Origin: Ruminococcaceae bacterium Marseille-P2935 | GTDB taxonomy: Bacteria > Bacillota > Clostridia > Oscillospirales > Ruminococcaceae | Assembly (NCBI GenBank): GCA_900104565.1 | Contig: LT629952.1 | Coordinates: 806,001-870,000 of the forward strand | DNA: 64,000 nt | Direction: 5' to 3' | Shown: positions 138 through 27,132 of the stretch, piece by piece | Position numbering within the stretch: position 1 is the stretch's first letter | Layout of the letters: every line of letters starts with the position of its first letter | Notes under the pieces: model-generated | Databases searched by the model: none | Told to the model about the DNA's origin: nothing | Seen by the model: only the letters and a program-made list of their open reading frames with translations | Translations under genes and position numbers: made by a program

Positions 138-3134
138 CTATGAGCAAATAAGCGTTAGCGGAATTCCATATGTGTCCTTGAGGTAGGCCTCGGCGCTACA
201 AAGGACTTGATGCATTGCAGGGGTGATTTGAGTGCTATCAACACCAGGTTGAACGATAAAAACACTAAATTCAGAGGAATATACTTTTAGTTTGTTTTTA
301 AGCATGAACATTACTCTGTTGTCGCCTACTTCATATCGTGTAGGTTTTCCATTACTAATCCTGTCATTTTCCCGTTTCATAAGGCGATCCAACATATTTT
401 TCGTATTACTTGCCCATTGTATGCATTTTTCAGCTTGCCCACAAACTTCATATAAATCCCCAACTCTTGCGCCAGATTGTAATGCACCGGAGTATTTGCA
501 GTGGTACAGTTCAAATGAAAGGCTATTGTTAACGGCATCTTCCTGAACCGCAATGACATCCGCCACTTCTCCAGAACCATCATCGTCAAAGATGAGGCAG
601 TATTTTTCTGATGCTTTTAACTCCGAAATGAGTTTGTACTGTATGCTATCAGGTTCTTTGCTTGCTTTTTGTGATTCTTTTGTAATCGTAACACCAGACC
701 AATCCCATGGAATGATATTATCAGCAGAGAAAGTAATTGGACGAACTGTTTTCAACCTAACAAGGAGATTGCCTTCTAGCGAAGATCCATCAACAAACCA
801 TATCGTAGGAGGATTTTCATTAAAATATTCCTTAAGGCTTATCTCACTGCCACGGCTAAAACACAAATAAATTATTGATCCACTTTTGTGCTTAACTGAG
901 TATCCTTTTTCCGTTATATCTAAAGTGAACTCCTCTTTAAAATTATCGTTACCTACATAAAAACTCAATGCCGATGTTTCGTCAAAGGTAATCAATCCAA
1001 TATTTACAAGAAATGACTTCGAATCAGATAGTGCTGTTTTAATAGTAATAGAGCCTTTCCAATCCGCCTCAATCTCTGGAGGAAAATCAATTCTATACGG
1101 CACAACCGTTGGCCGAGCAAAGATTTCTTCTGGAATAAGTGCACCTTTTAGAACTTCTGAAGTGACAATATTCGAATCAAGAATTTTCTCAGCTTGCTTA
1201 TCACACCAGTTTTTCCAGTAATCTATGGTTTCAACCCACTTCGCCCAAATTGTTCCTTTATAGGAACAACCAATACTTATACTGGTTCCATCTTCGTATC
1301 CTACTCCAAATAAATTGGACTTTATTGAAGTGCCTGTGGTTGCTCCGGTTATTCCTTCGGCAACATCAATGCCTGCAAACATTCTGTAACGAATATGATG
1401 ATTTGATACAGCTGTTTTGAGCCCAACAGTAGAAAGCATAAGACGATTGATTCCGTGTAGGCAGCGGAAGACATTTTCTCCAGTTATGCGTGTGCAACTA
1501 TCAAAAACAGCCTCAGCCAAGCGATTAGCTATTCCCTTATCTGTGGTGTTGATAAAGAAGGATTTTTTATTTTCGTTCCAATAAAGAATATGTAGGTTCC
1601 AATTATCGTTTGTAATATCTTGGCATGTTGTCCAGTCCACATTACTTGTACATAGCTCCGTTATTATCAGAATTTTTTCTTGTTCATTTACAAAATGTTG
1701 ACTGTGCTCAGGATTAAAAACGTTTTCCCATCTTTTCCAATGCCAGTCTGTTTCCTCTGTGGTATACATAAACATACTGACTTTGGGCCTTATTTGATTT
1801 AAAGGGATTACCTCTGTTCCGGTAAATCCACGAGATAGTTTTTGAAGCTCAACCTCTCGTCCGATTTTCTCATCAGATATATCTTTAAGTACTTTATTCC
1901 AATCTGCGTCCTGTGAGTATAATTCTTCTAAAGATTCTTGAATATCATCGTCTACAATGTTTGCAACGACTGAAGCATCACCTAAATCCGATTGAGTTCA
2001 AGCAAAACGCCCTATAAACTGTATGGTTATTGGTAAAGACTTATATTTATCATGAATTGCACATATTTTTAACTGAGGTATGTCTATCCCTTCACTAAAC
2101 ATGTCCACGCACACGACAATTTTTGAAGTTCCATCCGTTATGCTCTGCAGTGCAGATTTATTATCAGTAGCGGTGTTATCGCTGATGATTAGCACCGGTG
2201 CGTGTCTCAAATAATATTTTCGATAAATGTTCTCATACAATTCTTTTGCCCGTCCCTGCGTAGAAGCACGAACCAGTAACAAATGGGGTAACCCATTTGC
2301 TATATCTGCCTCAAGTAGTTCAACCGCTTTTTTCGCTACTGATATATCTTTTTTGTCACTGTCAAATTCATATACTGGATAAAAGTTTATAGGCTTGAAA
2401 TATCCACATTCTTGTGCAAGAACAAGCGGATAATTATAGATAATATCGCCATCGATCTTTTTGCCATCGTTACGAAACGGTGTAGCAGTAAATTGCAAGC
2501 ATTTTACAGATGCGAAAGCATTTTTTACTTTTTTCCAAGACTTTGAAGGTACATGATGTGCCTCGTCAATGATTACGGTATCACATGTTGATGCCAAAAG
2601 TTGCATGAACTCGTTCTTAAAGTATCCTGAATTAAGCAACGACATCGTTGTAATAATCAAGTTGCTTTTATCGAGTAATTCTTGTAATTCAGTAATATCC
2701 TTGGGTGACGAAATCAGACATCCGACAACTGGATTCTCAAACGATTCATTAATTGCTCCAATTTCTCGTAGTTTTCCAAGTGTTGAAAACCTTGCGATGG
2801 TCTGCTTTCTTAATAGATCACTTGGAACTATTATGCAGGTTTTCGAACAGCATTCAGATACAACTGTAGCAATCATGACTTCTGTTTTTCCCGTTCCAGT
2901 AGGCATAACAATCGTGGACGCTTTAGAGGATACGGTCCAATGTGATTTAATTGCGTATAGAGCACCTAATTGAGCTGAGCGAAATCCATTTTCTTCACCA
3001 GAGCTACTTTTAGGAAAGCTGAAGCTGTTGTTTTTCCAGGATGCAACAATATCATCTACATTTACCCAGTCGCTTCCTTTCGGAGCATGAATAATATAGT
3101 TCTTTTCTCCAATTTTCTTCTTCTCAAAGCTCAT
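138..3134 (-). pseudogene. DEAD/DEAH-box helicase gene interrupted by one in-frame TGA
   Basis: A superfamily 2 helicase of 998 codon positions would be encoded, but codon 379 (1998-2000) is TGA. The two open halves (1998-3134, and onward to 138) are in the same frame with no other stop between them. Seen motifs: Q-like box near residues 52-56, Walker A MPTGTGKT (77-84), DEAH (190-193), TATPF (216-220), motif V DMFSEGIDIP, and motif VI QFIGRFA at 372-378. The next codon should be the conserved motif VI arginine, and CGA to TGA gives exactly this stop. After it the frame continues with helicase-like sequence (TQSDLGDASVVANIVDDDI) and a 500-residue C-terminal region I do not recognise. A good SD (GGAGGG) precedes the ATG at 3134. 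It is 65 bp downstream of the Fic gene and probably co-transcribed. The family is common in phage-defence and mobile loci. As it stands, only a helicase lacking its arginine finger could be made, unless the stop is read through. Confidence 0.85.
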
Positions 3135-3199
3135 TTTCAGCCCTCCAATAAGCCGTTATAAAACACTCTGCACATATGGAACCTTTATGAGAATTCTTT

Positions 3200-4312
3200 T
3201 CATAATAATATATCCTCAAGTGCATCGTGCGTCCAAATGCGATTCCTTACATTATCATTTTTTAGAACAGTGATACCTTTTTCCTCTAACAGATACACTG
3301 CTTTTGCAACTGAATTGAATGAAAGCCCTAAGCATTTCGAAGTGAAAGAAACATTTGTGATCGGATGCTTTTTCAAATGTTCATATACCGAGAGAATACT
3401 TTTAGATATGTTCTCAACACCCCTTAACTGTGCCCATCCTTCAGAAATAACTTGCTCATATTTCATCAGCATTTCCGCAGATTGCTGTGCTGCTTGTCCC
3501 ACAGCATTAACAAAAAACTTGATCCACCGGATATATCCACCGCTGTACTGTGTCGTCCGAAGCAAGTCGAAATACTCATTCTTATTGTGATACAGATACT
3601 CGGACAAGCATATTAGGGGACTTGCCTCTCCAACAAGATCACGCAGTATCATCGGCACGAGGATTCGTCCGACAATACCGTTATACTGTTCAAATGGATG
3701 GATCATTTCAAATTGGTAATGTACCAGCGCTGCCTTAATCAGCGGATCAGTATTATGGTCGTTATAGAGATATGCAGAAATATCAGCCAGTGCAGGGAGT
3801 ACAGCATCCGGTGCTGTAGGGTTGTATCCTTTAAGATTTGTCTTTGCTCCCAGCCAAAAAGTTTGATGCACCCTAACATCTATCGGGGTATTCTCTGATT
3901 CTCCATTGAGTGCGATGCCGCAAATCTGGCTCAAGTCAGGAGCGTGGATCTCCAAATTTGCCGCTGCGCTGTAGGCCGCCTCCAAGTTCATGATGGGAGT
4001 TATATTCCCTTTGCCGGTGCCGCGGATAGTGAGTATTTCTTTGAAATCGGGATCATCGTAGTCGATCATATGGGAATAGGTACACTCTTTCAAAAGCATC
4101 AGCTCCGCAAATGCTTCTTTATTCGGAGCATACTCAACAAGCCCTTCCAGAAAGCCAATATTCCTGTGGGCCTCTATCAGCAAGGCAACCAATTCGTCAT
4201 CCATTTGATACATACCCCCGCGCATCAAGGGACGCGGGGTAAAGGAATAGAATGTAAGGCTTGGCTTTTCGGGATCAAAATGTTCCGTGTAATCACCTGT
4301 ATAGGGCAGCAT
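3200..4312 (-). CDS. Fic/DOC-family protein with a variant Fic motif
   Basis: This 370-residue protein has the layout of a Fic protein: an N-terminal Fic_N-like region, a Fic core, and a C-terminal winged-helix-like region (about residues 300-370) like those fused to many Fic proteins. Fic enzymes usually transfer AMP or another nucleotide monophosphate to a target hydroxyl. The catalytic loop reads HPFEQYNGIVGR. The catalytic His, Phe, the Asn-Gly pair and the last Arg are kept, but relative to HxFx(D/E)GNGRxxR the acidic residue is Gln, the first Gly is Tyr and the first Arg is Ile. The usual inhibitory SxxxE motif is also altered (SHMIDYD). This may mark a subfamily with different chemistry rather than decay. 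The start has a GAGGT SD seven bases upstream. It is the first gene of a probable two-gene unit with the helicase and lies beside an integrase remnant, which suggests cargo of an older element. Confidence 0.8.
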   Translation of the reverse strand: MLPYTGDYTEHFDPEKPSLTFYSFTPRPLMRGGMYQMDDELVALLIEAHRNIGFLEGLVEYAPNKEAFAELMLLKECTYSHMIDYDDPDFKEILTIRGTGKGNITPIMNLEAAYSAAANLEIHAPDLSQICGIALNGESENTPIDVRVHQTFWLGAKTNLKGYNPTAPDAVLPALADISAYLYNDHNTDPLIKAALVHYQFEMIHPFEQYNGIVGRILVPMILRDLVGEASPLICLSEYLYHNKNEYFDLLRTTQYSGGYIRWIKFFVNAVGQAAQQSAEMLMKYEQVISEGWAQLRGVENISKSILSVYEHLKKHPITNVSFTSKCLGLSFNSVAKAVYLLEEKGITVLKNDNVRNRIWTHDALEDILL

Positions 4313-4373: not shown

Positions 4374-4415
4374 GAACTATTTCTTGATTTATCTCAGAAA
4401 ACCAAGAAATAGTTC
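4374..4415. repeat. Perfect 13-bp inverted repeat upstream of the Fic gene
   Basis: The arms GAACTATTTCTTG (4374-4386) and CAAGAAATAGTTC (4403-4415) are perfect reverse complements separated by 16 bp. There is no T-tract, so a terminator is unlikely. It sits 62 bp upstream of the Fic start, just beyond a possible minus-strand promoter (TATACT near 4330-4350), so an operator is the simplest reading. It also lies only 35 bp from the junction with the integrase remnant. Confidence 0.45.
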
Positions 4416-4449
4416 AATAAAAATCGGAAATCGAGTTCCACGAATTAGC

Positions 4450-4620
4450 CATACAAATGCTACATTAATGTTAAAGGAAAATGTCCCTGCTAAAATCGTT
4501 AGTACAATGTTAGGTCATTCTTCAATTGGTATTACTTTGGACACTTATTCTCATGTACTAACTGATATGCAAAAACCAGCTATTAATGCCATAAATGATA
4601 TTTTAAAAAACATTTATTAG
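4450..4620 (+). pseudogene. 3' remnant of a tyrosine integrase gene
   Basis: The last 56 codons (HTNATLMLKENVPAKIVST... to the stop) match the C-terminus of the complete integrase at 7251-8375 with only a few substitutions. The similarity begins abruptly at 4450, immediately after the point where the second catalytic Arg would be. The remnant keeps the His of GHSS and the nucleophile Tyr (LDTYSHV) but lacks the N-terminal, core-binding and most of the catalytic domain. An ATG at 4384 opens the same frame, but its first 22 codons are unrelated sequence. It is followed by the same terminator and tRNA 3' part as the complete gene, so it is the leftover of an earlier related element in the same tRNA gene. 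Confidence 0.9.
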
Positions 4621-4667
4621 CATTATATTAGCAAATTCCTTATTTCTCTGTAATTAAAACAACAAGA

Positions 4668-4702
4668 AAAAACCGCCTAAACATTCTGTTTAAGCGGTTT
4701 TT
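4668..4702 (+). terminator. Terminator after the integrase remnant
   Basis: The hairpin has arms AAAAACCGC and TAAAC pairing with GTTTA and GCGGTTTTT, followed by a T run. It is an exact copy of the terminator at 8423-8457 and lies within the 311-bp direct repeat. Confidence 0.8.
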
Positions 4703-4760
4703 GGCGGAGAAGGAGGGATTCGAACCCTCGAGGAGCTATTAACCCCTACACGAGTTCCAG
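4702..4760 (-). other. Attachment site: displaced 3' part of tRNA-Ser
   Basis: These 59 bp are identical to 8457-8515, the tRNA-Ser 3' half from the anticodon loop through the T arm and acceptor strand to CCA. The 5' half is absent here: after TTCCAG the sequence turns AT-rich. This is the distal attachment site made when the element at 4702-8515 integrated. Strand exchange within or next to the anticodon loop is typical for tyrosine integrases that use tRNA genes. Confidence 0.9.
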
Positions 4761-4813
4761 ATGTTTATTTTAATTTTATATAAAATAAAATAGTAAAAAT
4801 GGCTATAAATAGT

Positions 4814-4845
4814 AAAAACTAGTGTTTTGTAAGCACTAGTTTTTT
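4814..4845 (-). terminator. Terminator of the repressor gene
   Basis: The inverted repeat has arms AAAAACTAGTG (from 4814) and CACTAGTTTTT (from 4834) around a short loop, 33 bp after the repressor stop. It gives a T run on the minus strand, and another on the plus strand, so it may act in both directions. Confidence 0.7.
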
Positions 4846-4877
4846 TTATTTATTAGCAAATTTATTAGCATTAATTT

Positions 4878-5294
4878 TTATTCAACTGCGTTTTTAAGAT
4901 TTTTCATTGTTTGTTCTAATTTGTTTAATCTCTCTTCAAAATTATTTTTACTTGCATCTATGGTTTGATACAATCCGAGTTTATTATCTGTTCTACAGGT
5001 AAGATAATCCATTGATACATTAAATATATCTGCAATTCTAATTAGTACTTCTATTGGTACTTCGCTTTTTTTATTTTCATATCCTCTATAAGTTAAAACA
5101 TTAATATTTATTTTTTCGCTTAATTCTTCTTGGGTCATTTGATTAGCTGTTCTGATTTCTTTTATTCTTATTGCTATTTGTTTTTTTCTTTCATTACGGG
5201 CATTAGTTAAATTTATTCCTTGTTCTATACCTTTTTGTGCAGCTTCATCAATGGTATCAAAGAATTGTTTTAAATTTATTTTTTCTTCAGGCAT
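4878..5294 (-). CDS. XRE-family helix-turn-helix repressor
   Basis: The 138-residue protein has a Cro/CI-type helix-turn-helix in its middle third (IAIRIKEIRTANQMTQEELS... followed by YRGYENKKSEVPIEVLIRIA and the ending FNVSMDYLT), which is the standard XRE fold. It is preceded by a charged N-terminal helix and followed by a short probable coiled coil (ERLNKLEQTMKNLKNAVE) that could mediate oligomerisation. The start is taken as ATG 5294: a GTG three codons earlier is part of the SD AGAGGTG itself. It is transcribed divergently from the other genes of the element, and the intervening region has repeated TACTATATA motifs overlapping the opposite promoter. It is therefore most likely the master repressor controlling replication and excision. 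Confidence 0.85.
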   Translation of the reverse strand: MPEEKINLKQFFDTIDEAAQKGIEQGINLTNARNERKKQIAIRIKEIRTANQMTQEELSEKININVLTYRGYENKKSEVPIEVLIRIADIFNVSMDYLTCRTDNKLGLYQTIDASKNNFEERLNKLEQTMKNLKNAVE

Positions 5295-5314
5295 TTTTAT
5301 CACCTCTTTTTTTG

Positions 5315-5344
5315 ATTATACACTAGTTTAATTTATTTTGTAAA
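5315..5344 (-). promoter_or_regulatory. Promoter of the XRE repressor gene
   Basis: On the minus strand TTTACA (5339-5344) and TATAAT (5315-5320) are separated by 18 bp, about 20 bp upstream of the start codon and its SD. This is a good SigA-type promoter. Confidence 0.7.
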
Positions 5345-5377
5345 GTTATTTGTTTATCTATATTTATAGTATTTTTT

Positions 5378-5484
5378 ACTATATAATCAGCAATTTAAAC
5401 GAAATATAATTTGTATAAAATTCTATATTGACTTATTATATATCAAATGTTACTATATACTCATATAGTAGATTCTACTATATA
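5378..5484. promoter_or_regulatory. Operator-like TACTATATA repeats
   Basis: TACTATATA occurs at 5378-5386, 5451-5459 and 5476-5484, and in inverted orientation with one mismatch at 5462-5470. The last two form a palindrome (ATATAGTAGATTCTACTATAT). One copy overlaps the -10 of the rightward promoter. The arrangement fits repressor binding sites between divergent transcription units. Confidence 0.55.
5428..5456 (+). promoter_or_regulatory. Rightward promoter of the element
   Basis: TTGACT (5428-5433) and TACTAT (5451-5456) have 17-bp spacing. The -10 lies inside one of the repeated TACTATATA motifs, so repressor binding there would block RNA polymerase. It would drive the RHH gene and the genes beyond it through the GC-rich stem region. 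Confidence 0.6.
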
Positions 5485-5505
5485 GAAAGTTATTTTTCCT
5501 TATAA

Positions 5506-5645
5506 GCACTGCCGAAGGTAAGGCTTTACAATGAGAAGGCTTGTCTTAGGCTAGCTGCCGGCAGGCAGAGAAGGCGGAGCCGGAACGCCCCTGCCGTTGG
5601 CTGCCGAATTAGACAAGCCTCGAGGCTCGTTGTAAAGCCCAGTGC
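5506..5645. repeat. GC-rich imperfect inverted repeat (cruciform/structured RNA candidate)
   Basis: Nested arms pair across about 140 bp: GCACT (5506-5510) with AGTGC (5641-5645), GGCTTTACAA (5522-5531) with TTGTAAAGCC (5630-5639), AGGCTTGTCT (5537-5546) with AGACAAGCCT (5611-5620), and CGGCAG (5559-5564) with CTGCCG (5601-5606), with smaller internal pairings. It is GC-rich in an otherwise very AT-rich element. Candidates are a rolling-circle replication origin (double- or single-strand) or a structured leader RNA ahead of the RHH gene. The sequence does not decide between them. Confidence 0.75.
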
Positions 5646-5674
5646 GTTGATTGAAAGGGGGTGTATTAGAAGTG

Positions 5675-5854
5675 ATGTATGTAACTGATATAAAGCCTAG
5701 AAAACGTGTTAATTGTTATTTAGATTATGATGTTGTTGACGCAATCGATAATTTTGCTAAATTTCATTCTATGTCTCGTGGTTCAGCAATTTCTGTTTTA
5801 TGTATTAATAGTTTAAATGCTAACTTTATTTTACCAGACTCTAGCAAAAAATAA
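5675..5854 (+). CDS. Small ribbon-helix-helix-like DNA-binding protein
   Basis: The 59-residue protein starts MYVTDIKPRKRVNCYLDYDVVDAIDNFAK and continues with SMSRGSAISVLCINSL. A short basic beta strand followed by two helices is the pattern of CopG/Arc-type ribbon-helix-helix proteins, which in small replicons often regulate copy number or the rep gene. The start is set by the SD AAAGGGGGTG (5654-5662): either GTG 5672 or ATG 5675 fits, and ATG is chosen. It is the first gene of the rightward operon, directly after the GC-rich inverted repeat. Family assignment rests on pattern only. Confidence 0.6.
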   Translation: MYVTDIKPRKRVNCYLDYDVVDAIDNFAKFHSMSRGSAISVLCINSLNANFILPDSSKK

Positions 5855-5881
5855 CCTTATTTTGATATGTGGGGTGTTCCT

Positions 5882-6142
5882 ATGGAAGAGAAACGTATTA
5901 AATCTGTTATTCCTGTAAGTTTTAGTAATTTTGATAATTTTAATTTGTATCTTTATGATCTTGACCAGTGTTTTTTTGAATTATCCATTTTATGGGGTAA
6001 AGTAATTGAAATAGAAAATTCACCTATATCAAATGCATTATGTGCTTGTATGGATAGGTCACTTACTTTTTTATCCGATACTATTAATTCATTACATATG
6101 ATTGATTCTTGTATTTCTAAAGGTATTGATATTGATCATTGA
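5882..6142 (+). CDS. Small protein of unknown function
   Basis: The 86-residue acidic protein (MEEKRIKSVIPVSFSNFDNFNLYLYDLDQCFF...) is not one I recognise. It has no membrane segment and no clear signal peptide, and contains three Cys in its second half plus the final SCISKGIDIDH. The start is the ATG at 5882 because GGGGTG lies five bases upstream; an ATG five codons earlier lies upstream of that SD. It is 27 bp after the RHH gene and is followed by the hairpin before the initiator gene, so it probably acts in replication or its control. Codon use is AT-rich like the rest of the element. Confidence 0.6.
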   Translation: MEEKRIKSVIPVSFSNFDNFNLYLYDLDQCFFELSILWGKVIEIENSPISNALCACMDRSLTFLSDTINSLHMIDSCISKGIDIDH

Positions 6143-6150
6143 TGATGCTT

Positions 6151-6188
6151 GAAGTCCTCGACGAAAGCTTCAGCACGTCGAGGGCTTC
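6151..6188. repeat. Strong 13-bp stem-loop just upstream of the initiator gene
   Basis: GAAGTCCTCGACG (6151-6163) pairs with CGTCGAGGGCTTC (6176-6188) with one wobble, around a 12-base loop AAAGCTTCAGCA. There is no T-tract on either side, which argues against a simple terminator. Its place right before an HUH initiator gene makes it a candidate nick-site hairpin or a translational control structure. Confidence 0.7.
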
Positions 6189-6259
6189 CTTATACTTGAC
6201 TAAGTAACATAAATCGATACTTTGCAGAATATTTAACAATCTTTTGTAGAGGTGATTTT

Positions 6260-7051
6260 ATTAAAAGCTCATTATTGTATATTCCTGATGTTGGTACTAT
6301 TCGTAAATATAGTGATGAAAAATATAAAATTACTCATCATAATTGTTTACGTAATTCTGGTTTTGAACTTGATAAACAAATTAATTTTACAGCAAAGGGT
6401 AAAGCAGGAAATGATACAAAATTAGAAAATAGTTTGTCCCGCTCTAAATCAAAGGTTTTTGAATTAGCTTATTGTAATACGTGGTCTTTATTTTGTACTT
6501 TTACTATTTCGCCTAAGCGTTTTAATAGATATTCGTTAGGTCCATTTTATAGGACATTTTCAGTGTTTATTAGAAATTTCAATCGTATTCATTCTCTTAA
6601 TATTCGATACTTAATTATACCTGAATTACATGAAGATGGTGCCTGGCATTTACATGCTCTTCTTGACGGTTTACCAATATCCTCTTTAATTCTTTTCACT
6701 TTGGATATGAAATTACCTTATAAAATCTTACATAAAGTTAAAAATGGTGAACTGGTATATGATTGGCCTGCTTATTCTTCTAAATTTGGTTTTTGTTCTT
6801 TAGAAATTATAAAGAATCATCTATCAGTATCAAAGTATATTACTAAATATGTAACTAAAGATTTGCTTCGTTCTGTTTCTGAATTAAACGCTCATGTTTT
6901 TTATTCTTCAAAAGGTTTACATAGATCTGAAATCGTTTATAAAGATTATATGAAGAATGCTATTGCTGATCCCGATTTCGAAAATGATTATGTTTCCATG
7001 AAATGGTTGAATAATTTTGATGATTGTTTAACTTTTTTTAGAAAGGATTAA
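6260..7051 (+). CDS. HUH-type rolling-circle replication initiator
   Basis: The protein (263 residues if started at 6260) has the motifs of an HUH endonuclease: a hydrophobic motif I region (LFCTFTISP), motif II PELHEDGAWHLHALL with the metal-binding HLH at about residues 130-132, and motif III SKYITKYVTK with two overlapping YxxK candidates at about 193-200. The layout resembles Rep proteins of small ssDNA phages (Microviridae VP4-like) and rolling-circle plasmids. Such proteins nick one strand at the origin and stay linked through Tyr. Start: the only SD, AGAGGTG (6247-6253), fits an ATT at 6260, whereas the first conventional start (TTG 6275) is about 20 bases away, so a rare ATT start is proposed. 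The excisionase-like gene follows after 2 bp. Confidence 0.8.
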   Translation: MKSSLLYIPDVGTIRKYSDEKYKITHHNCLRNSGFELDKQINFTAKGKAGNDTKLENSLSRSKSKVFELAYCNTWSLFCTFTISPKRFNRYSLGPFYRTFSVFIRNFNRIHSLNIRYLIIPELHEDGAWHLHALLDGLPISSLILFTLDMKLPYKILHKVKNGELVYDWPAYSSKFGFCSLEIIKNHLSVSKYITKYVTKDLLRSVSELNAHVFYSSKGLHRSEIVYKDYMKNAIADPDFENDYVSMKWLNNFDDCLTFFRKD

Positions 7052-7053
7052 TT

Positions 7054-7251
7054 ATGAAAGAAATTACTAATGAAAAACTTACTTTCACAGTACATGAAGC
7101 TGCTGATATTATTGGAGTAAGTTCTACGAAACTTTATCAATTAGTTCGTGCAAATAAAGTACCTAATATTAAACTTGGAAAGCGTTATGTTATTCCAAAG
7201 GAAAAGTTTATTCATTGGTTAGATTCTGTTGCTGTCGGTGGTGATCTTTAG
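7054..7251 (+). CDS. Excisionase-like helix-turn-helix protein
   Basis: The 65-residue protein has the 'excisionase family' winged helix-turn-helix (FTVHEAADIIGVSSTKLYQLVRANKVPNIKLGKRYVIPKEKFIHWL), where a MerR-like recognition helix is followed by a short wing and a C-terminal helix. Small proteins of this type bind near attachment sites and bias a tyrosine integrase towards excision. It lies between the initiator gene (2-bp gap) and the integrase gene, whose GTG shares a base with this gene's TAG, so the three are translationally coupled. Confidence 0.85.
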   Translation: MKEITNEKLTFTVHEAADIIGVSSTKLYQLVRANKVPNIKLGKRYVIPKEKFIHWLDSVAVGGDL

Positions 7252-8375
7252 TGCGTGGTTCAGTTGTAAAACGTGGTAAAACATATTCTATTGTTTATTA
7301 TATGGGTAAAGATTCTAAAGGAAAATGGGTTCAAAAGTGGGAATCAGGTTTTATTTCAAAAAAGAAGGCTGAACAAGTTCTTAGACAACGTATTTCCGAT
7401 ATTGAAAATAGTTTTGCTAATAAATTAGATAACTCCGAATTATCTATTTTTCTTTTACACTGGTTAGAAACTTATTGTGAAAAGCAATTATCAAGAAATA
7501 CAGTAAATGGTTATCGTGTAAATATTGAAAAACATATTATTCCGTATATTGGGCATATCCGTTTATTGAAATTACAGCCTAGTGATATTGAAAATCTTTA
7601 TATCTCACTTTCTAAAGAAAATCTTTCTAACACATCAATTCTTTATGTTCACCGTGTTTTAAAATGCGCTTTGAACTATGCAGTTAAGAAAAGGGTAATT
7701 AATTATAATGTAATGGATTATATTGATGCTCCAAAAAAAGATAAATTTATACCATACGTTCTTAATTCTAATGAGGTTAACCGTCTCTTATTGGCTTGTA
7801 AAGGCTCTGAAATATTTATGCCTGTATTGCTCTCAGTTACCCTGGGTTTACGTCGTGGCGAGGTTTTAGGGCTAATGTGGGATGATATAGATTGGAAATA
7901 TCAAACTGTTCATATTCAGCGCACTGCTACTTGTTATAAAAACAATGAATTTTGCTTGTCAGATGTTAAGACTTCTAATAGTAATAGGACTCTTTGTTTG
8001 CCAAAATTTGTATTATCTGAATTAGAAAAACATTTTCAAAATCAAAAAGTACAAGCTTTAGAATTTGGTACAGGTTTTAATGTTCTTAATTTGATTAATT
8101 GTAGAGCGGATGGCTCACCAATTTCTACATATGTTTTAAATAGTCAATTCAAAAAAATTGTTAAGATTATTGGACTTCATTCCTTAAGATTTCACGATTT
8201 ACGACATACAAATGCTACATTAATATTAAAGGAAAATGTTCCTGCTAAAATCGTTAGTACAATGTTAGGTCATTCTTCAATTGGTATTACTTTGGACACT
8301 TATTCTCATGTACGAACTGATATGCAAAAACCAGCTATTAATACCATAAATGATATTCTAAAAAAGATTTGTTAG
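7251..8375 (+). CDS. int: Tyrosine integrase
   Basis: The 374-residue site-specific recombinase has an N-terminal arm-binding region (MRGSVVKRGKTYSIVYYMG), a SAM-like core-binding domain (about 60-160) and a C-terminal catalytic domain with the full set of active-site residues: Arg201 (TLGLRRGE), Lys240 (DVKTSN), His315 and Arg318 (HDLRHT), His341 (LGHSS) and the nucleophile Tyr351 (LDTYSHV). The GTG start shares one base with the preceding stop. The gene ends 82 bp before the tRNA-Ser 3' end, the usual position of the integrase next to its attachment site. Its 3' end is duplicated at 4450-4620. It appears intact. Confidence 0.97.
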   Translation: MRGSVVKRGKTYSIVYYMGKDSKGKWVQKWESGFISKKKAEQVLRQRISDIENSFANKLDNSELSIFLLHWLETYCEKQLSRNTVNGYRVNIEKHIIPYIGHIRLLKLQPSDIENLYISLSKENLSNTSILYVHRVLKCALNYAVKKRVINYNVMDYIDAPKKDKFIPYVLNSNEVNRLLLACKGSEIFMPVLLSVTLGLRRGEVLGLMWDDIDWKYQTVHIQRTATCYKNNEFCLSDVKTSNSNRTLCLPKFVLSELEKHFQNQKVQALEFGTGFNVLNLINCRADGSPISTYVLNSQFKKIVKIIGLHSLRFHDLRHTNATLILKENVPAKIVSTMLGHSSIGITLDTYSHVRTDMQKPAINTINDILKKIC

Positions 8376-8515
8376 CATTATATTAGTAAATTCCTTATTT
8401 CTCTGTAATTAAAACAACAAGAAAAAACCGCCTAAACATTCTGTTTAAGCGGTTTTTGGCGGAGAAGGAGGGATTCGAACCCTCGAGGAGCTATTAACCC
8501 CTACACGAGTTCCAG
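8205..8515 (+). repeat. 311-bp direct repeat, right copy
   Basis: This is the partner of 4450-4760 (offset 3755, about eight substitutions). It contains the end of the complete integrase gene, the terminator and the 3' part of tRNA-Ser up to the anticodon loop. Confidence 0.95.
8423..8457 (+). terminator. Terminator between integrase and tRNA-Ser
   Basis: The hairpin AAAAACCGC...TAAAC / GTTTA...GCGGTTTTT has a T run that runs into the complement of the tRNA CCA end. It ends integrase transcription and, being symmetrical, probably also the tRNA transcript from the other strand. Confidence 0.8.
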
Positions 8516-8549
8516 TCGTGCGCCATAAACCGGGCTAGGCGACTTCTCC
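8457..8549 (-). tRNA. tRNA-Ser (anticodon GGA)
   Basis: The 93-nt class II tRNA has acceptor strands GGAGAAG (8543-8549) and CTTCTCC (8461-8467), anticodon stem CACGA/TCGTG around the loop CTGGAAC (anticodon GGA, reading UCC/UCU), a long variable arm, a T arm with GGTTCGAATCC, and encoded discriminator G plus CCA (8457-8459). The 3' part from the anticodon loop onward is contributed by the integrated element and is identical to 4702-4760, so the gene remains functional after integration. Confidence 0.97.
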
Positions 8550-11499: not shown

Positions 11500-12559
<1,060 letters not shown>

Positions 12560-23782: not shown

Positions 23783-24184
23783 TTAGCGTTCGATAATATC
23801 CTGAAAAGTAACCGAGTCTAGCTTTTCTCGTACCATTCCGGATATTTCTTCATAAATTTTATTAAACTTGCAACACTTGTTTTCGGTATGTTCACATTGA
23901 AAATCCGGCCGAACACAACGGCTGAGCACATAGGGGCCTTCCACCGTTTCAATCACTTCCCGCAGGGTGATGTCCTTTGGTTCTTTTGCAAGCTCATAGC
24001 CACCACGGGTGCCCTTATAGGATTTTACAATTTCGCTTGCAACCAGTTTTCGAAGTATTTTTAAAGAAAAACGCAAAGTAACCTCTGTTTTTTCCGCAAT
24101 AGTTTTTGCGTCCATACGTACAGGCTCTACAGCCAGGCAATGAACAATTCGTACCGCATAATCCGATTCCAAAGTGATGTGCAT
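23783..24184 (-). CDS. Rrf2-family transcriptional regulator
   Basis: The 133-residue regulator starts MHITLESDYAVRIVHCLA and has the Rrf2 winged helix (DAKTIAEKTEVTLRFSLKILRKLVASEIVKSYKGTRGGYELAKEPKDITLREVIETVEGP). Cys90, Cys97, Cys104 and Cys105 lie where IscR/NsrR-type proteins bind an Fe-S cluster, so redox, iron or nitric-oxide sensing is likely, though the spacing is not that of any one named member. It forms a single-gene unit with its own good promoter and terminator, between rpoD and the ATP synthase operon. Confidence 0.88.
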   Translation of the reverse strand: MHITLESDYAVRIVHCLAVEPVRMDAKTIAEKTEVTLRFSLKILRKLVASEIVKSYKGTRGGYELAKEPKDITLREVIETVEGPYVLSRCVRPDFQCEHTENKCCKFNKIYEEISGMVREKLDSVTFQDIIER

Positions 24185-24243
24185 ATATTACCTCTTTTTG
24201 TTTTACCGGGATTTTTTAGCAGGCAAAACAATTATACAAATTG

Positions 24244-24272
24244 AGTATACAATAATATGCCCATCCTGTCAA
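24244..24272 (-). promoter_or_regulatory. Promoter of the Rrf2 gene
   Basis: On the minus strand TTGACA (24267-24272) and TATACT (24244-24249) have exactly 17-bp spacing. A partial dyad TGTATAC...TTTGTATAAT around the -10 could be the autoregulatory site. Confidence 0.7.
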
Positions 24273-24279
24273 GCAAGGA

Positions 24280-25362
24280 TTAATCTAGAAAGTCCTTTAA
24301 TTTCTTGCTGCGGCTGGGATGGCGCAGCTTACGCAGGGCTTTTGCCTCAATTTGGCGAATACGCTCGCGAGTAACGTTAAATTCCTTACCCACCTCTTCC
24401 AAGGTACGGCTTCTGCCGTCTTCCAAGCCAAAACGCAAACGGAGCACCTTCTCTTCCCTTGGGGTAAGAGTTTGCAGTACCTCTACCAGCTGTTCTTTCA
24501 GCAGAATATGGGAAGCTGCATCGGCAGGAGCCGGTGCATCATCATCTGGAATAAAGTCACCTAAATGGCTGTCTTCCTCTTCACCAATCGGCGTTTCCAG
24601 AGATACAGGTTCCTGTGCGACACGCATAATCTCACGTACTTTATCTACCGGCATATCCAGCTCGTTTGCAATCTCCTCCGCGGTAGGCTCATGTCCATTT
24701 TTATGCAGAAGCTGAGAACTAACCTTTTTTACCTTGTTAATGGTCTCCACCATGTGCACCGGAATACGAATGGTCCTGGCCTGGTCTGCAATCGCACGGG
24801 TGATTGCCTGCCGAATCCACCAGGTTGCATAGGTAGAAAATTTAAACCCCTTGGTATGATCGAACTTTTCTACAGCTTTAATCAGTCCCAGGTTGCCTTC
24901 CTGAATCAAATCCAAGAACTGCATTCCACGGCCCACATAGCGTTTTGCAATACTGACTACCAGCCTGAGGTTAGCTTCTGACAGCCGTTTTCTTGCATAA
25001 GGGTCTCCTTCGCCCATGCGGATCGCCAGATTAATCTCTTCCTCTGGAGTCAGCAGAGGTACCCGGCCAATCTCTTTTAAATAGACTTTAACCGGGTCGT
25101 CAATGCTGATACCCTCCGCCGAAAGGGAATTTTCCAGGTCGGCGTCATCACTGGGCATGGGAAAGTTCAAATCCAGACTGGTGTTCATATCCTCAACGAT
25201 TTCAATATTATAGGCTTCGATGGTATCATAGAGTTTATCTACCTGCTCCACATCATAGTCCAGCTCATCTAAAGCCTCATCGATTTCCTTTGTGGTAAGT
25301 TTGCCCTTTGCCTTACCCTGCTCCAGTAAATCGCGAATAATAAATTTTTTATCTTGTGCCAC
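24280..25362 (-). CDS. rpoD: Primary sigma factor RpoD/SigA
   Basis: This 360-residue housekeeping sigma factor has a short region 1.1 ([27 protein letters not shown]), region 1.2 ([17 protein letters not shown]), region 2 with the -10 recognition helix ([43 protein letters not shown]), region 3 (HMVETINKV...) and region 4.2 for the -35 ([39 protein letters not shown]). It is 12 bp downstream of dnaG, which is the classic macromolecular-synthesis operon arrangement. The N-terminal region is short, as in most Firmicutes. Confidence 0.98.
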
Positions 25363-25374
25363 CCAGTTTTCCCC

Positions 25375-27132
25375 CTATTTCTTTTTGGCTGCAAGCGATG
25401 TTATGTAATCTTTCAACTGTTCATTGTCCATTCCTGCAACCTGTTGTTCCGTCTTATTTTTTTTAAATTCTAATATTGCGTTGATATAGTCATCCGCATC
25501 CTCTTTTTGAAACCCCATACCCGATACCGATGCAACCAGCTGCGATAGTACCGACATTTGCTCTTCATTCAGCAGTGCCGAAAGTGACATCATATCGATT
25601 GCTTTGTTTTCTGCAAGCCGTGCCACAAGCACCCCAAACAATTCCTGGTTCCGTGTAGTAACAAAATCTTCTGGAGAAATACGGCTGTGAATATGCTCAT
25701 AATAATCGGGGTTCTTCATTAATATTCCGATTAATTTATCCTCTGCCAACGCATAGCGAATGTATTTGCTGCGCTGAGGGTCGGTACGAACACCCGGTGG
25801 TTCACCCGTATAAATCTTCAGGCTGCTGCGCTCTTTGCGCTCCTTGGCTTTAATGCGCTGTTTCATAATGGCAACCGCTTGCTGCATCATATTCTCCTTG
25901 GAAACGCCAAATTCCTCGCAGACCTTTCCGATATACACCTCCCGTTCTATCGGGCTGTTCACTCCTGCCATCAGCGAGGCAAAGTCCTTTAAAAAGGCCA
26001 CCTTGCCTTCGGCAGTATCGGTTTCGTACTTTGATTTCAGCTTTTCTATTTCAAAATCCACCGCGCCCCGGCTGCCTTCCAGCAACTTTTTAAAGCGGGC
26101 CGCGCCGAATTTTTTAATATATTCATCCGGGTCTTTGGCGCCTTCAATTTTCAGCACCTTTACCTTGACCCCAGTCTCATTAAACAGGTTAATTGCCCTG
26201 CGGGTTGCCTTCTGGCCCGCCTCGTCTGAGTCGTAGGAAATAACCACCTGCTGGCAGTAGCCCGAAATAATCCGTGCCTGCTCCTGGGTCAAAGAGGTGC
26301 CCAGGGTTGCCACTGCATTCTCAAAACCGCCCTGGTGCAGCGCCACAACATCCATATACCCTTCGGCCAGAATCAGGCTGGACTCTTTGGTAGATTTTGC
26401 AACATTCATGGCAAACAGGTTGCGGCTTTTTTTAAACACCGGCGTATCGGGCGAGTTTAAATACTTGGGGCCGTTGCCTTCCAGCAGCCTGCCGCCAAAC
26501 CCGATTACATTGCCCCGTATATCAATAATTGGGAAAATGACCCTTCCCCGGAACAGGTCATACAAAGAACCATTCCGGCCCTGGGTTACCAGTGCTGCAG
26601 CCAGCAGTTCTTCTCTGGAATAGCCTTTCCCTGTCAGAAATTTTAATGCATTGTCCCAACCGGCGCCTGCATACCCCAAACCAAAGCGTTTGATTGTTTG
26701 GTCGGTAAGCCCACGCTGCCTCAGGTAAACATATCCCGGCCGTCCTTCCGGTGAAATAAGCTGGTGGAAAAAGAAGCGGGCTGCTTCGCGGTTCAGTTCC
26801 AATATTCTGGTTTTTAACCGGGCCGCCGGGTCATTCTGTACCTCCTCCGGCATAGCCAGACCGGCCTTTTGGGCTAAAAATCGAATTGCCTCAACGTAGT
26901 CCAGGTTTTCCACCCGGCGGACAAAGGTTACCACATCCCCGCCGGCGCCGCAGCCAAAACAGTAGAAGGACTGGCTGTCGGGATAAACCGTGAAGGAAGG
27001 GGTCTTTTCGCTGTGAAAAGGACAGAGCCCAGTCAGGTTGCGCCCCCGACGTTTTAACTGCACATAAGAGGAAATTACGCTTTCCACATCGCAGCGGTAT
27101 TTCAGTTCCTGAATAAAACTATCCGGTATCAT
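25375..27132 (-). CDS. dnaG: DNA primase DnaG
   Basis: The 585-residue primase makes RNA primers for replication. The N-terminal zinc-ribbon has Cys37, His40, Cys58 and Cys61 (CPFH...FYCFGCGAGGD). The TOPRIM domain holds LILAEGYMDVVALHQGGFENAVATLGTSLT with the catalytic Glu, and ISYDSDEAGQKA with the metal-binding Asp residues. The C-terminal part (about 430-585) should bind the DnaB helicase. The gene is upstream of rpoD and downstream of dgt in one probable operon. Confidence 0.98.
   Translation of the reverse strand: MIPDSFIQELKYRCDVESVISSYVQLKRRGRNLTGLCPFHSEKTPSFTVYPDSQSFYCFGCGAGGDVVTFVRRVENLDYVEAIRFLAQKAGLAMPEEVQNDPAARLKTRILELNREAARFFFHQLISPEGRPGYVYLRQRGLTDQTIKRFGLGYAGAGWDNALKFLTGKGYSREELLAAALVTQGRNGSLYDLFRGRVIFPIIDIRGNVIGFGGRLLEGNGPKYLNSPDTPVFKKSRNLFAMNVAKSTKESSLILAEGYMDVVALHQGGFENAVATLGTSLTQEQARIISGYCQQVVISYDSDEAGQKATRRAINLFNETGVKVKVLKIEGAKDPDEYIKKFGAARFKKLLEGSRGAVDFEIEKLKSKYETDTAEGKVAFLKDFASLMAGVNSPIEREVYIGKVCEEFGVSKENMMQQAVAIMKQRIKAKERKERSSLKIYTGEPPGVRTDPQRSKYIRYALAEDKLIGILMKNPDYYEHIHSRISPEDFVTTRNQELFGVLVARLAENKAIDMMSLSALLNEEQMSVLSQLVASVSGMGFQKEDADDYINAILEFKKNKTEQQVAGMDNEQLKDYITSLAAKKK

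Follow-up and report, generated by a model that had tools for sequence, protein, structure and literature searches.

An integrated element bounded by tRNA-Ser repeats

The window considered here, that is, the whole stretch of 64,000 nucleotides analysed from Ruminococcaceae bacterium Marseille-P2935 (contig LT629952.1, positions 806,001 to 870,000; G000:C7:806001-870000 in a host genome of 2.67 Mb and 7 contigs), carries near its left end, in a chromosome of gut-type Clostridia, a small integrated element organized around an HUH rolling-circle initiator (Rep) and a tyrosine integrase. A repeat search revealed two identical 59-bp direct repeats, at 4702-4760 and 8457-8515, each corresponding to the 3' end of a tRNA-Ser(GGA), and the distance between their starts defines an element unit of 3755 bp. 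A previous, sequence-only reading of this DNA had placed the attachment (att) ends at 4702 and 8515, about 3.8 kb apart, and the repeats agree with it, the right copy lying inside the intact tRNA-Ser(GGA) gene at 8457-8549 on the minus strand. The GC content of the element is 28.8%, as compared with 44.2% for the window. Between the att copies, a leftward repressor gene of the HTH_3 (helix-turn-helix) family is followed by rightward genes for a ribbon-helix-helix (RHH)-like protein, an 86-residue protein, the HUH initiator, an HTH_17 protein and the tyrosine integrase, all of them open. The features that define the element are these:

4702 to 4760, no strand assigned: left att copy, the displaced 3' part of tRNA-Ser, identical to 8457-8515
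4878 to 5303, minus strand: Cro/CI-type repressor, HTH_3 (Pfam 3.6e-14)
6193 to 6216, plus strand: candidate double-strand origin TACTTGACTAAGTAACATAAATCG, that is TACTTG^ACTAAGTAACATAAATCG, upstream of rep
6260 to 7051, plus strand: HUH rolling-circle initiator, Rep (PF23343, REP_ORF2-G2P, 5.3e-9; phrog_3419 3e-13)
7054 to 7251, plus strand: excisionase-like HTH_17 protein, Xis (Pfam 2.2e-11; TIGR01764 2.5e-10)
7251 to 8375, plus strand: tyrosine integrase, Int (PF00589 3.6e-23; phrog_1 5.5e-69)
8457 to 8515, no strand assigned: right att copy within tRNA-Ser(GGA), from the repeat search and the tRNA call

The repressor, initiator, excisionase-like and integrase genes claimed by the earlier reading are therefore all present and open, with the Pfam matches listed, and the integrase gene overlaps the excisionase-like gene by one base. 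An own integrase and defined att boundaries are features by which integrative and mobilizable elements (IMEs) are recognized, and this element has both. Profile searches of its six proteins found no recognized capsid, Zot, coupling protein or type IV secretion system (T4SS). An integrative and conjugative element (no T4SS or coupling protein, with the six proteins accounted for) and a Microviridae prophage (no capsid family among the element proteins) were rejected, as was an artefact as the explanation of the element. The Zot/pI assembly ATPase of inoviruses is not in the element, and none convincing is in the genome.

The initiator and its candidate origin

The frame of rep is open from 6260, and the first ATG, GTG or TTG in it is a TTG at 6275. 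Both motifs reported for the initiator in the sequence-only reading, HLH (6647-6655) and YxxK, could be located, but the latter is in fact double (YITKYVTK, 6836-6859), which provides two candidate catalytic tyrosines. Both HLH histidines and the tandem YxxKYxxK (Y193, K196, Y197, K200) are invariant in an alignment of 12 Rep rows. With respect to its affiliation, Pfam, PHROGs, inovirus records and a fold search concur in placing the protein with initiators of the single-stranded DNA phage and rolling-circle kind, as had been proposed. Its AlphaFold model (predicted local distance difference test, pLDDT, 82.8) matches predicted viral proteins; where these have names, most are replication proteins, from inoviruses, microviruses and tailed phages. 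In the PDB, even the best matches stay above E 0.001 (E 0.0088 and higher). Helitron, geminivirus, parvovirus and pMV158 initiators are among them, and no conjugative relaxase appears by name in the 50 chains listed. As a PF23343/phrog_3419 HUH protein, this Rep falls within the type of initiator of rolling-circle replication (RCR) accepted in IMEs in the place of a relaxase, its relaxase role being putative.

Twenty-seven phage records match Rep, namely 18 bajarodino, 8 Dulem and 1 Microviridae. The three bajarodino and Dulem records that were opened are Inoviridae with an annotated Zot (bajarodino virus 5, 36.7% identity; Dulem virus 69, 25.7%; Dulem virus 74, 29.8%), and the Microviridae record carries a capsid gene. 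Matches among plasmids amount to 31 records, 24 of them from Staphylococcus, and these distant relatives include 1.4-kb plasmids of Staphylococcus aureus with 25-26% identity. Such relatives, together with profile searches that revealed neither a capsid nor a known relaxase, favor the possibility that the element is an integrated rolling-circle plasmid that lacks dedicated transfer and spreads rarely by transformation, vesicles or chance mobilization. In the same direction, clusters of HUH proteins devoid of plasmid or viral members, one of them mostly from Clostridiales, have been reported as likely new families of integrated elements (PMC6668415). This explanation is nevertheless rather improbable, as it accounts neither for sister elements bearing an FtsK-like ATPase nor for the recurrence of the element in several families of Clostridia, both presented below.

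The sequence TACTTGACTAAGTAACATAAATCG at 6193-6216 is found only once in the window at up to 3 mismatches. In the phiX174 record the viral-strand origin is marked at 4306 in CAACTTG^ATATTAATAACAC, and by this position the nick in the element would fall between 6198 and 6199. In 92 of 129 loci, the motif TACT[TA]GA[CT] is found within a stretch that begins 200 bp upstream of rep and ends 60 bp inside it, versus 46 of 2580 shuffles, a comparison that is post hoc since the motif was picked after viewing the same loci; in the remaining 37 it was not found near rep. It is present in both contexts, in 48/69 loci with Zot within 6 kb and in 44/60 without, and the consensus over 43 Zot-less sites is TACTTGACtaAgTAtCATATTTcGg. 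The motif is also found at bajarodino virus 5, though not at the two Dulem virus loci. The TTGACT that it contains resembles a -35 box, but conservation extends well past TTGACT. Directly 5' of the motif another feature was seen by eye:

6151 to 6188, no strand assigned: small stem-loop

Many relatives likewise have, by eye, a GC-rich and often hairpin-like stretch ahead of the motif. Judged from these sequence features, 6193-6216 is likely to be the double-strand origin of Rep, of a phiX174-like kind.

The element therefore combines an inovirus-family Rep with the corresponding origin motif, and this introduces the main rival among the explanations, according to which it is an inovirus satellite, functionally similar to RS1 or TLC of Vibrio: it would have kept Rep, the origin and an integrase of its own, and a helper inovirus would supply the assembly ATPase and coat for its packaging. 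That both Rep family and origin motif are common to Inoviridae records argues for it; the evidence presented in the following sections makes it, on the whole, an unlikely explanation, even if the strongest of the competing ones.

Related loci in other genomes

Relatives of the element recur in several families of Clostridia. In the 297 genomes examined from the host family, Rep is matched in 26 and Zot in 40 (up to 9 candidates were scored per genome, and 4 of the 40 matches are weak, 1e-7 to 5e-6), and 15 have both. Of 157 relatives on genome contigs, the 80 most similar to an alignment led by the window's Rep were kept, and 42 of the 43 IMG/VR loci have Zot, so that the counts are not to be taken as prevalences. 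Within the best 80, 37 have a downstream integrase and no nearby Zot, FtsK or serine recombinase, and 22 have Zot within 5 kb. The 19 loci between L069 and L105 with at least 5 kb on both sides comprise 13 Rep-Int loci without Zot, 3 with FtsK, 2 with Zot and 1 with none of these.

Attachment sites were searched for in 41 hand-chosen Zot-less loci, the window included. Direct repeats of tRNA type flank 20 of them, 17 overlapping a tRNA called by ARAGORN (Lys, Pro, Ser, Val) and 3 (L072, L087, L103) being tRNA-like by eye; no such repeat was found in the other 21, several of which end at a contig edge. The flanked spans measure 2607-3889 bp in 18 of the 20, the others being of 4462 bp (L089) and 2004 bp (L058). 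It had been suggested that the same gene order be sought at tRNA-Ser in other Clostridia, and it was indeed found in Oscillibacter (L079), where an element of 3430 bp in the same tRNA-Ser(GGA) carries repressor, Rep, Xis and Int arranged as in the window. Rep, Xis and Int are also shared with L072 and L087.

The left boundary

The left att copy is at the position given by the sequence-only reading, but the boundary proved more complex than noted there. The repeat extends leftward beyond att, exactly over 128 bp (4633-4760) and as a 97% copy of 8205-8504 over 4450-4749, and a tblastn search matched 4432-4614 to residues 313-373 of the 374 of the integrase with 85% amino acid identity. Since the repeated part beyond att takes in the end of another integrase gene, the following feature adjoins the element:

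4450 to 4701, plus strand: stub of an earlier element, consisting of a second integrase 3' end (open reading frame, ORF, 4384-4617) and a terminator-like hairpin; 97% copy of 8205-8456

The stub suggests that the same tRNA held an earlier element and that the site has been used at least twice. Repeats extending past the tRNA sequence are also present in L089, L112 and L117, and L103, where no tRNA is called, has repeats of the same spacing, so repeated use of one site seems to be common in the group. Homologous recombination across the long repeat is a possible alternative route of excision. Further to the left, at 138-4312, the leftward genes beside the element include one for a Fic protein (SoFic 1.1e-54) and a helicase-like ORF in which PbeA and restriction-type models find partial matches; a 545-residue protein encoded there partially matches the candidate defence family PDC-S71. 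These genes possibly represent an older island at the same tRNA.

A decayed stub next to an element with a Rep of inovirus family might also indicate that the element itself is the decayed remnant of an inovirus prophage. However, all its genes are open and att is intact, compact open Rep-Int elements of similar size recur in other species, which has already weakened this explanation, and the Rep clade, as shown next, is without Zot. A remnant is accordingly regarded as highly improbable.

Rep phylogeny and coupling-ATPase sisters

In a tree of 135 Rep rows, the labels for a nearby Zot and for a downstream integrase are strongly clustered, and the Zot-less-with-integrase label, borne by 43 rows, requires 15 changes, of which starred branches force at least 10; this indicates that the replication module has repeatedly switched context. 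A more careful tree was built from 52 rows hand-chosen among these; in both, the integrase label of L005 arises only from counting a neighboring Xer gene. In the latter tree, the window falls in a clade of 16 rows (99/96) with 10 Rep-Int rows, 6 others and no Zot row, a result for which at least 5 kb on both sides was available in 10 of the 16 loci. The next larger starred clade, of 24 rows (95/94), has a single Zot row, L090. This Zot-free surrounding weighs against packaging of the element as an inovirus satellite.

In three of the six other rows of the window's clade (L077, L078 and L082), rep is directly preceded by the gene for an FtsK/SpoIIIE-like ATPase, detected by PF01580 in L077 (3.9e-15) and L078 (8.1e-16) and by a home-made hidden Markov model in L082; in a fourth, L080, a small Walker-A ATPase was recognized by eye at that place. 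Of the six rows, L071, L075, L077 and L082 have a serine recombinase within 400 bp. FtsK-like ORFs near rep are also found in L134, L135 and L191. Zot-bearing, FtsK-bearing and minimal loci belong to one Rep family.

A proposed mobilizable rolling-circle element

Taken together, these data give a somewhat better than even chance that the element is a minimal integrative rolling-circle element of the mobilizable, IME-like kind. In the mechanism proposed, lifting of repression would allow Xis and Int to excise a 3755-bp circle, which would be maintained by rolling-circle replication after nicking of its plus strand by Rep at TACTTG^A. Rep would probably double as relaxase, a co-resident or incoming conjugative element, most likely of TcpA type, would carry the strand to a new cell, and Int would reinsert it there at tRNA-Ser. 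Conjugation is preferred over packaging because of the company that the window's Rep keeps in its clade. Proteins of the RCR-initiator type are treated as putative non-canonical relaxases in published descriptions of Firmicutes IMEs, and a tcpA upstream of an RCR-type relaxase is an arrangement reported for those of streptococci (PMC5357655, PMC5704250); by analogy, the FtsK-bearing sisters L077, L078 and L082 appear to display this tcpA-relaxase order. The anatomy of the element, the conserved catalytic residues of Rep and its origin motif, the Zot-free clade and the att-bounded Rep-Int relatives in other species, L079 included, are all consistent with such a reading.

The earlier view of a minimal integrated replicon free of capsid and cargo holds, but it does not extend to the lack of a visible relaxase noted there, since RCR-initiator-type proteins count as putative relaxases and relatives with an FtsK/TcpA-like ATPase occur in the clade. 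Several points speak against mobilization. The element encodes no coupling protein, an optional feature of IMEs; relaxase activity is putative for this Rep family, as is any identity with the PHA00330 class; and the same family and origin motif serve inoviruses. Moreover, the sisters L077 and L082 have a serine recombinase, unlike the streptococcal IMEs with RCR-type relaxases, all of which had tyrosine integrases according to the survey (PMC5357655).

Potential partners in the host genome also bear on this question. Its single PF01580 match, an 853-residue frame, is taken as the chromosomal FtsK, so no TcpA helper is seen, which counts against the mobilizable reading as well. One VirD4-type locus has a PF03432 relaxase with sortase, CHAP and TraG-like genes nearby, and such a locus is not the partner that the published account reports for RCR-type relaxases (PMC5704250). 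This conjugation-like locus (L200:516-18847, G000:C6) adjoins ABC transporter genes. Neither a Zot inovirus nor a TcpA helper was found in the genome, and the autonomy of the element is putative; to move between cells, elements of this class seem to rely on phages or other mobile elements, presumably by transfer in trans.

Helper inoviruses and other elements

The search for an inovirus helper bears mainly on the satellite explanation. No convincing Zot was found in this genome with the PF05707 profile and the A2 search: the PF05707 match (21.3 bits including frame neighbors, cut-off 20.3) lies, by eye, in a helicase-like ORF of a CRISPR-Cas locus and was rejected, and the A2 search gave one match of 33 positions (9.7e-4). 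Eight genomes have a Zot-less Rep locus with a downstream integrase (G000, G105, G161, G182, G221, G243, G270 and G289, the locus of G105 being cut at a contig start), and Zot is present elsewhere, on another contig, in only two of them (G105 and G243), which is also unfavorable to a satellite. As separate observations, a CRISPR array of 43-44 repeats with Cas-like genes alongside is located at L195:1540-4382 (G000:C5 about 24039-26881), and its 42 spacers gave only short matches to the window and the loci (best E 0.008 over 16 bases).

Two loci lend support to satellites. In a distant lineage, two tandem 2544-bp units of Rep and a short integrase adjoin a Zot-bearing inovirus (L064:6700-16860, G104:C14). 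An exact 15-bp core marks the beginning of both units and also precedes the inovirus, and the first 9 of these bases (ACAAAATAT) recur at the far end; the join contains an assembly gap (a run of N at 11803-11812), and this Rep is far from the window's in the 135-row tree. A 127-bp repeat beside the inovirus was set aside, since it lies on both sides of a run of N and has the look of a duplication at a scaffold gap, so that the comparison relies on the shared core alone. The second case is element B of the same genome (L005:8090-16808, G000:C7 about 430090-438808), three tandem copies of a 2906-bp unit beside an XerD-like gene, at a dif-like palindrome (TTTCGCTAAAT..TTTAGCGAAAT). Besides small genes and an HTH gene, the unit encodes a Rep that shares 36% identity with the window's; it has no integrase of its own and no Zot. 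By eye, a GC-rich stretch near 9300-9480 of L005 sets the first copy apart from the other two. Its Rep falls inside an inovirus clade, the six other members of which in the 52-row tree all have Zot (100/100), and on this sequence evidence element B appears a better candidate than the window's element for an inovirus-derived satellite or stripped prophage. An RstB-like label for its 96-residue protein found no support in PHROGs and was dropped. A third PF23343 gene of the genome (L046:8013-8723, C7:1304238) lies among genes that read as a tailed prophage.

Repressor, hairpin region and small proteins

The remaining features of the element are:

5366 to 5481, no strand assigned: two perfect ATAGTA-N5-TACTAT palindromes (5366-5382 and 5465-5481), between the divergent repressor and the rightward genes
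5522 to 5639, no strand assigned: 118-nt GC-rich hairpin region, from fold statistics
5651 to 5854, plus strand: 67-residue RHH-like protein, sub-threshold matches only
5882 to 6142, plus strand: 86-residue protein, predicted two-helix hairpin, no family match

The best NCBIfam match of the repressor is an RstR-family model (NF041951, 3.1e-15), below its cut-off (56.4 bits vs 80), a further resemblance in favor of a satellite. At up to 2 mismatches the palindrome has 8 matches in the window vs 1.87 expected, 5 of them within 4790-5481, and the two perfect copies are likely operators of the repressor. The hairpin region is 59% GC in an element of 29%, and 5490-5660 folds with a z of about -5 on both strands; a single-strand origin, a packaging signal or an RNA are candidate roles. 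Beyond this candidate, no packaging signal could be assigned in the element, which tells slightly against a satellite. A 12-mer common to the hairpin and L064 was discarded, its match being taken as chance since it has nine places, mostly copies of these two loci.

Regarding the small proteins, the gene called RHH in the sequence-only reading exists, but its family assignment is backed by sub-threshold matches only, and phmmer against the ORFs of the fetched loci found no relatives. The 86-residue protein, to which no role had been assigned, has no family match in profile searches (scanned as a 91-residue frame) and no convincing relative among the same ORFs (phmmer, best other E 0.36); its single-sequence AlphaFold prediction reaches pLDDT 75.8, and four other models 38-53. 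None of the six element proteins reaches the hydropathy of 1.6 (Kyte-Doolittle, 19 residues) set for coat-like membrane proteins, a value attained only by two overlapping, spurious-looking ORFs of 33 and 57 residues. The latter (6252-6425, plus strand) is out of frame over the start of rep, with its GTG start in the likely ribosome-binding site of rep, and is probably due to chance.

Comparison with known systems

The results characterize a recurring class of integrative elements in Clostridia, mostly of 2.6-3.9 kb, with a candidate origin and nick site, and one replication module links filamentous phages, coupling-ATPase elements and minimal Rep-Int elements. Because a phiX-like origin and a Rep family are common to all three, it is conceivable, if doubtful, that at least some of the Rep-Int elements of Clostridia represent filamentous-phage satellites which carry an integrase of their own and can travel by either phage packaging or conjugation. 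The RS1 and TLC satellites of Vibrio filamentous phages have, like this element, Rep and a repressor without morphogenesis genes; unlike them, the element has its own tRNA-targeting integrase, and no helper was found. It shares with the Inoviridae (bajarodino virus 5, Dulem virus 69, Dulem virus 74) the Rep family and an origin motif upstream of rep, but lacks Zot/pI and coat-like genes and has its own Xis and integrase. In the open-licence literature searched, no anatomical description of this class was found, which is no proof of its absence from print. Surveys keyed to Zot/pI, as described in PMC6813254, or to canonical relaxases would be expected to miss such elements.

By published description, the closest counterparts are the putative Rel_PHA00330 IMEs of Streptococcus (Coluzzi et al. 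2017, PMC5357655; Guedon et al. 2017, PMC5704250). According to these accounts, 118 of 144 streptococcal IMEs have an RCR-type relaxase, 21 of them of class PHA00330 (PMC5357655, PMC5704250). Like those described, the element has a tyrosine integrase and an RCR-type initiator replacing the canonical relaxase, with no T4SS, and some of them also lack a coupling protein. It differs in its host class, in being very small and cargo-free, in the phiX-like origin motif identified here and in that its FtsK-bearing sisters use serine recombinases. Finally, Kazlauskas et al. 2019 (PMC6668415) describe HUH clusters without plasmid or virus members as likely new families of integrated elements, and the present element resembles, by description, their mostly-Clostridiales cluster in its chromosomal HUH Rep without recognized viral structural genes.

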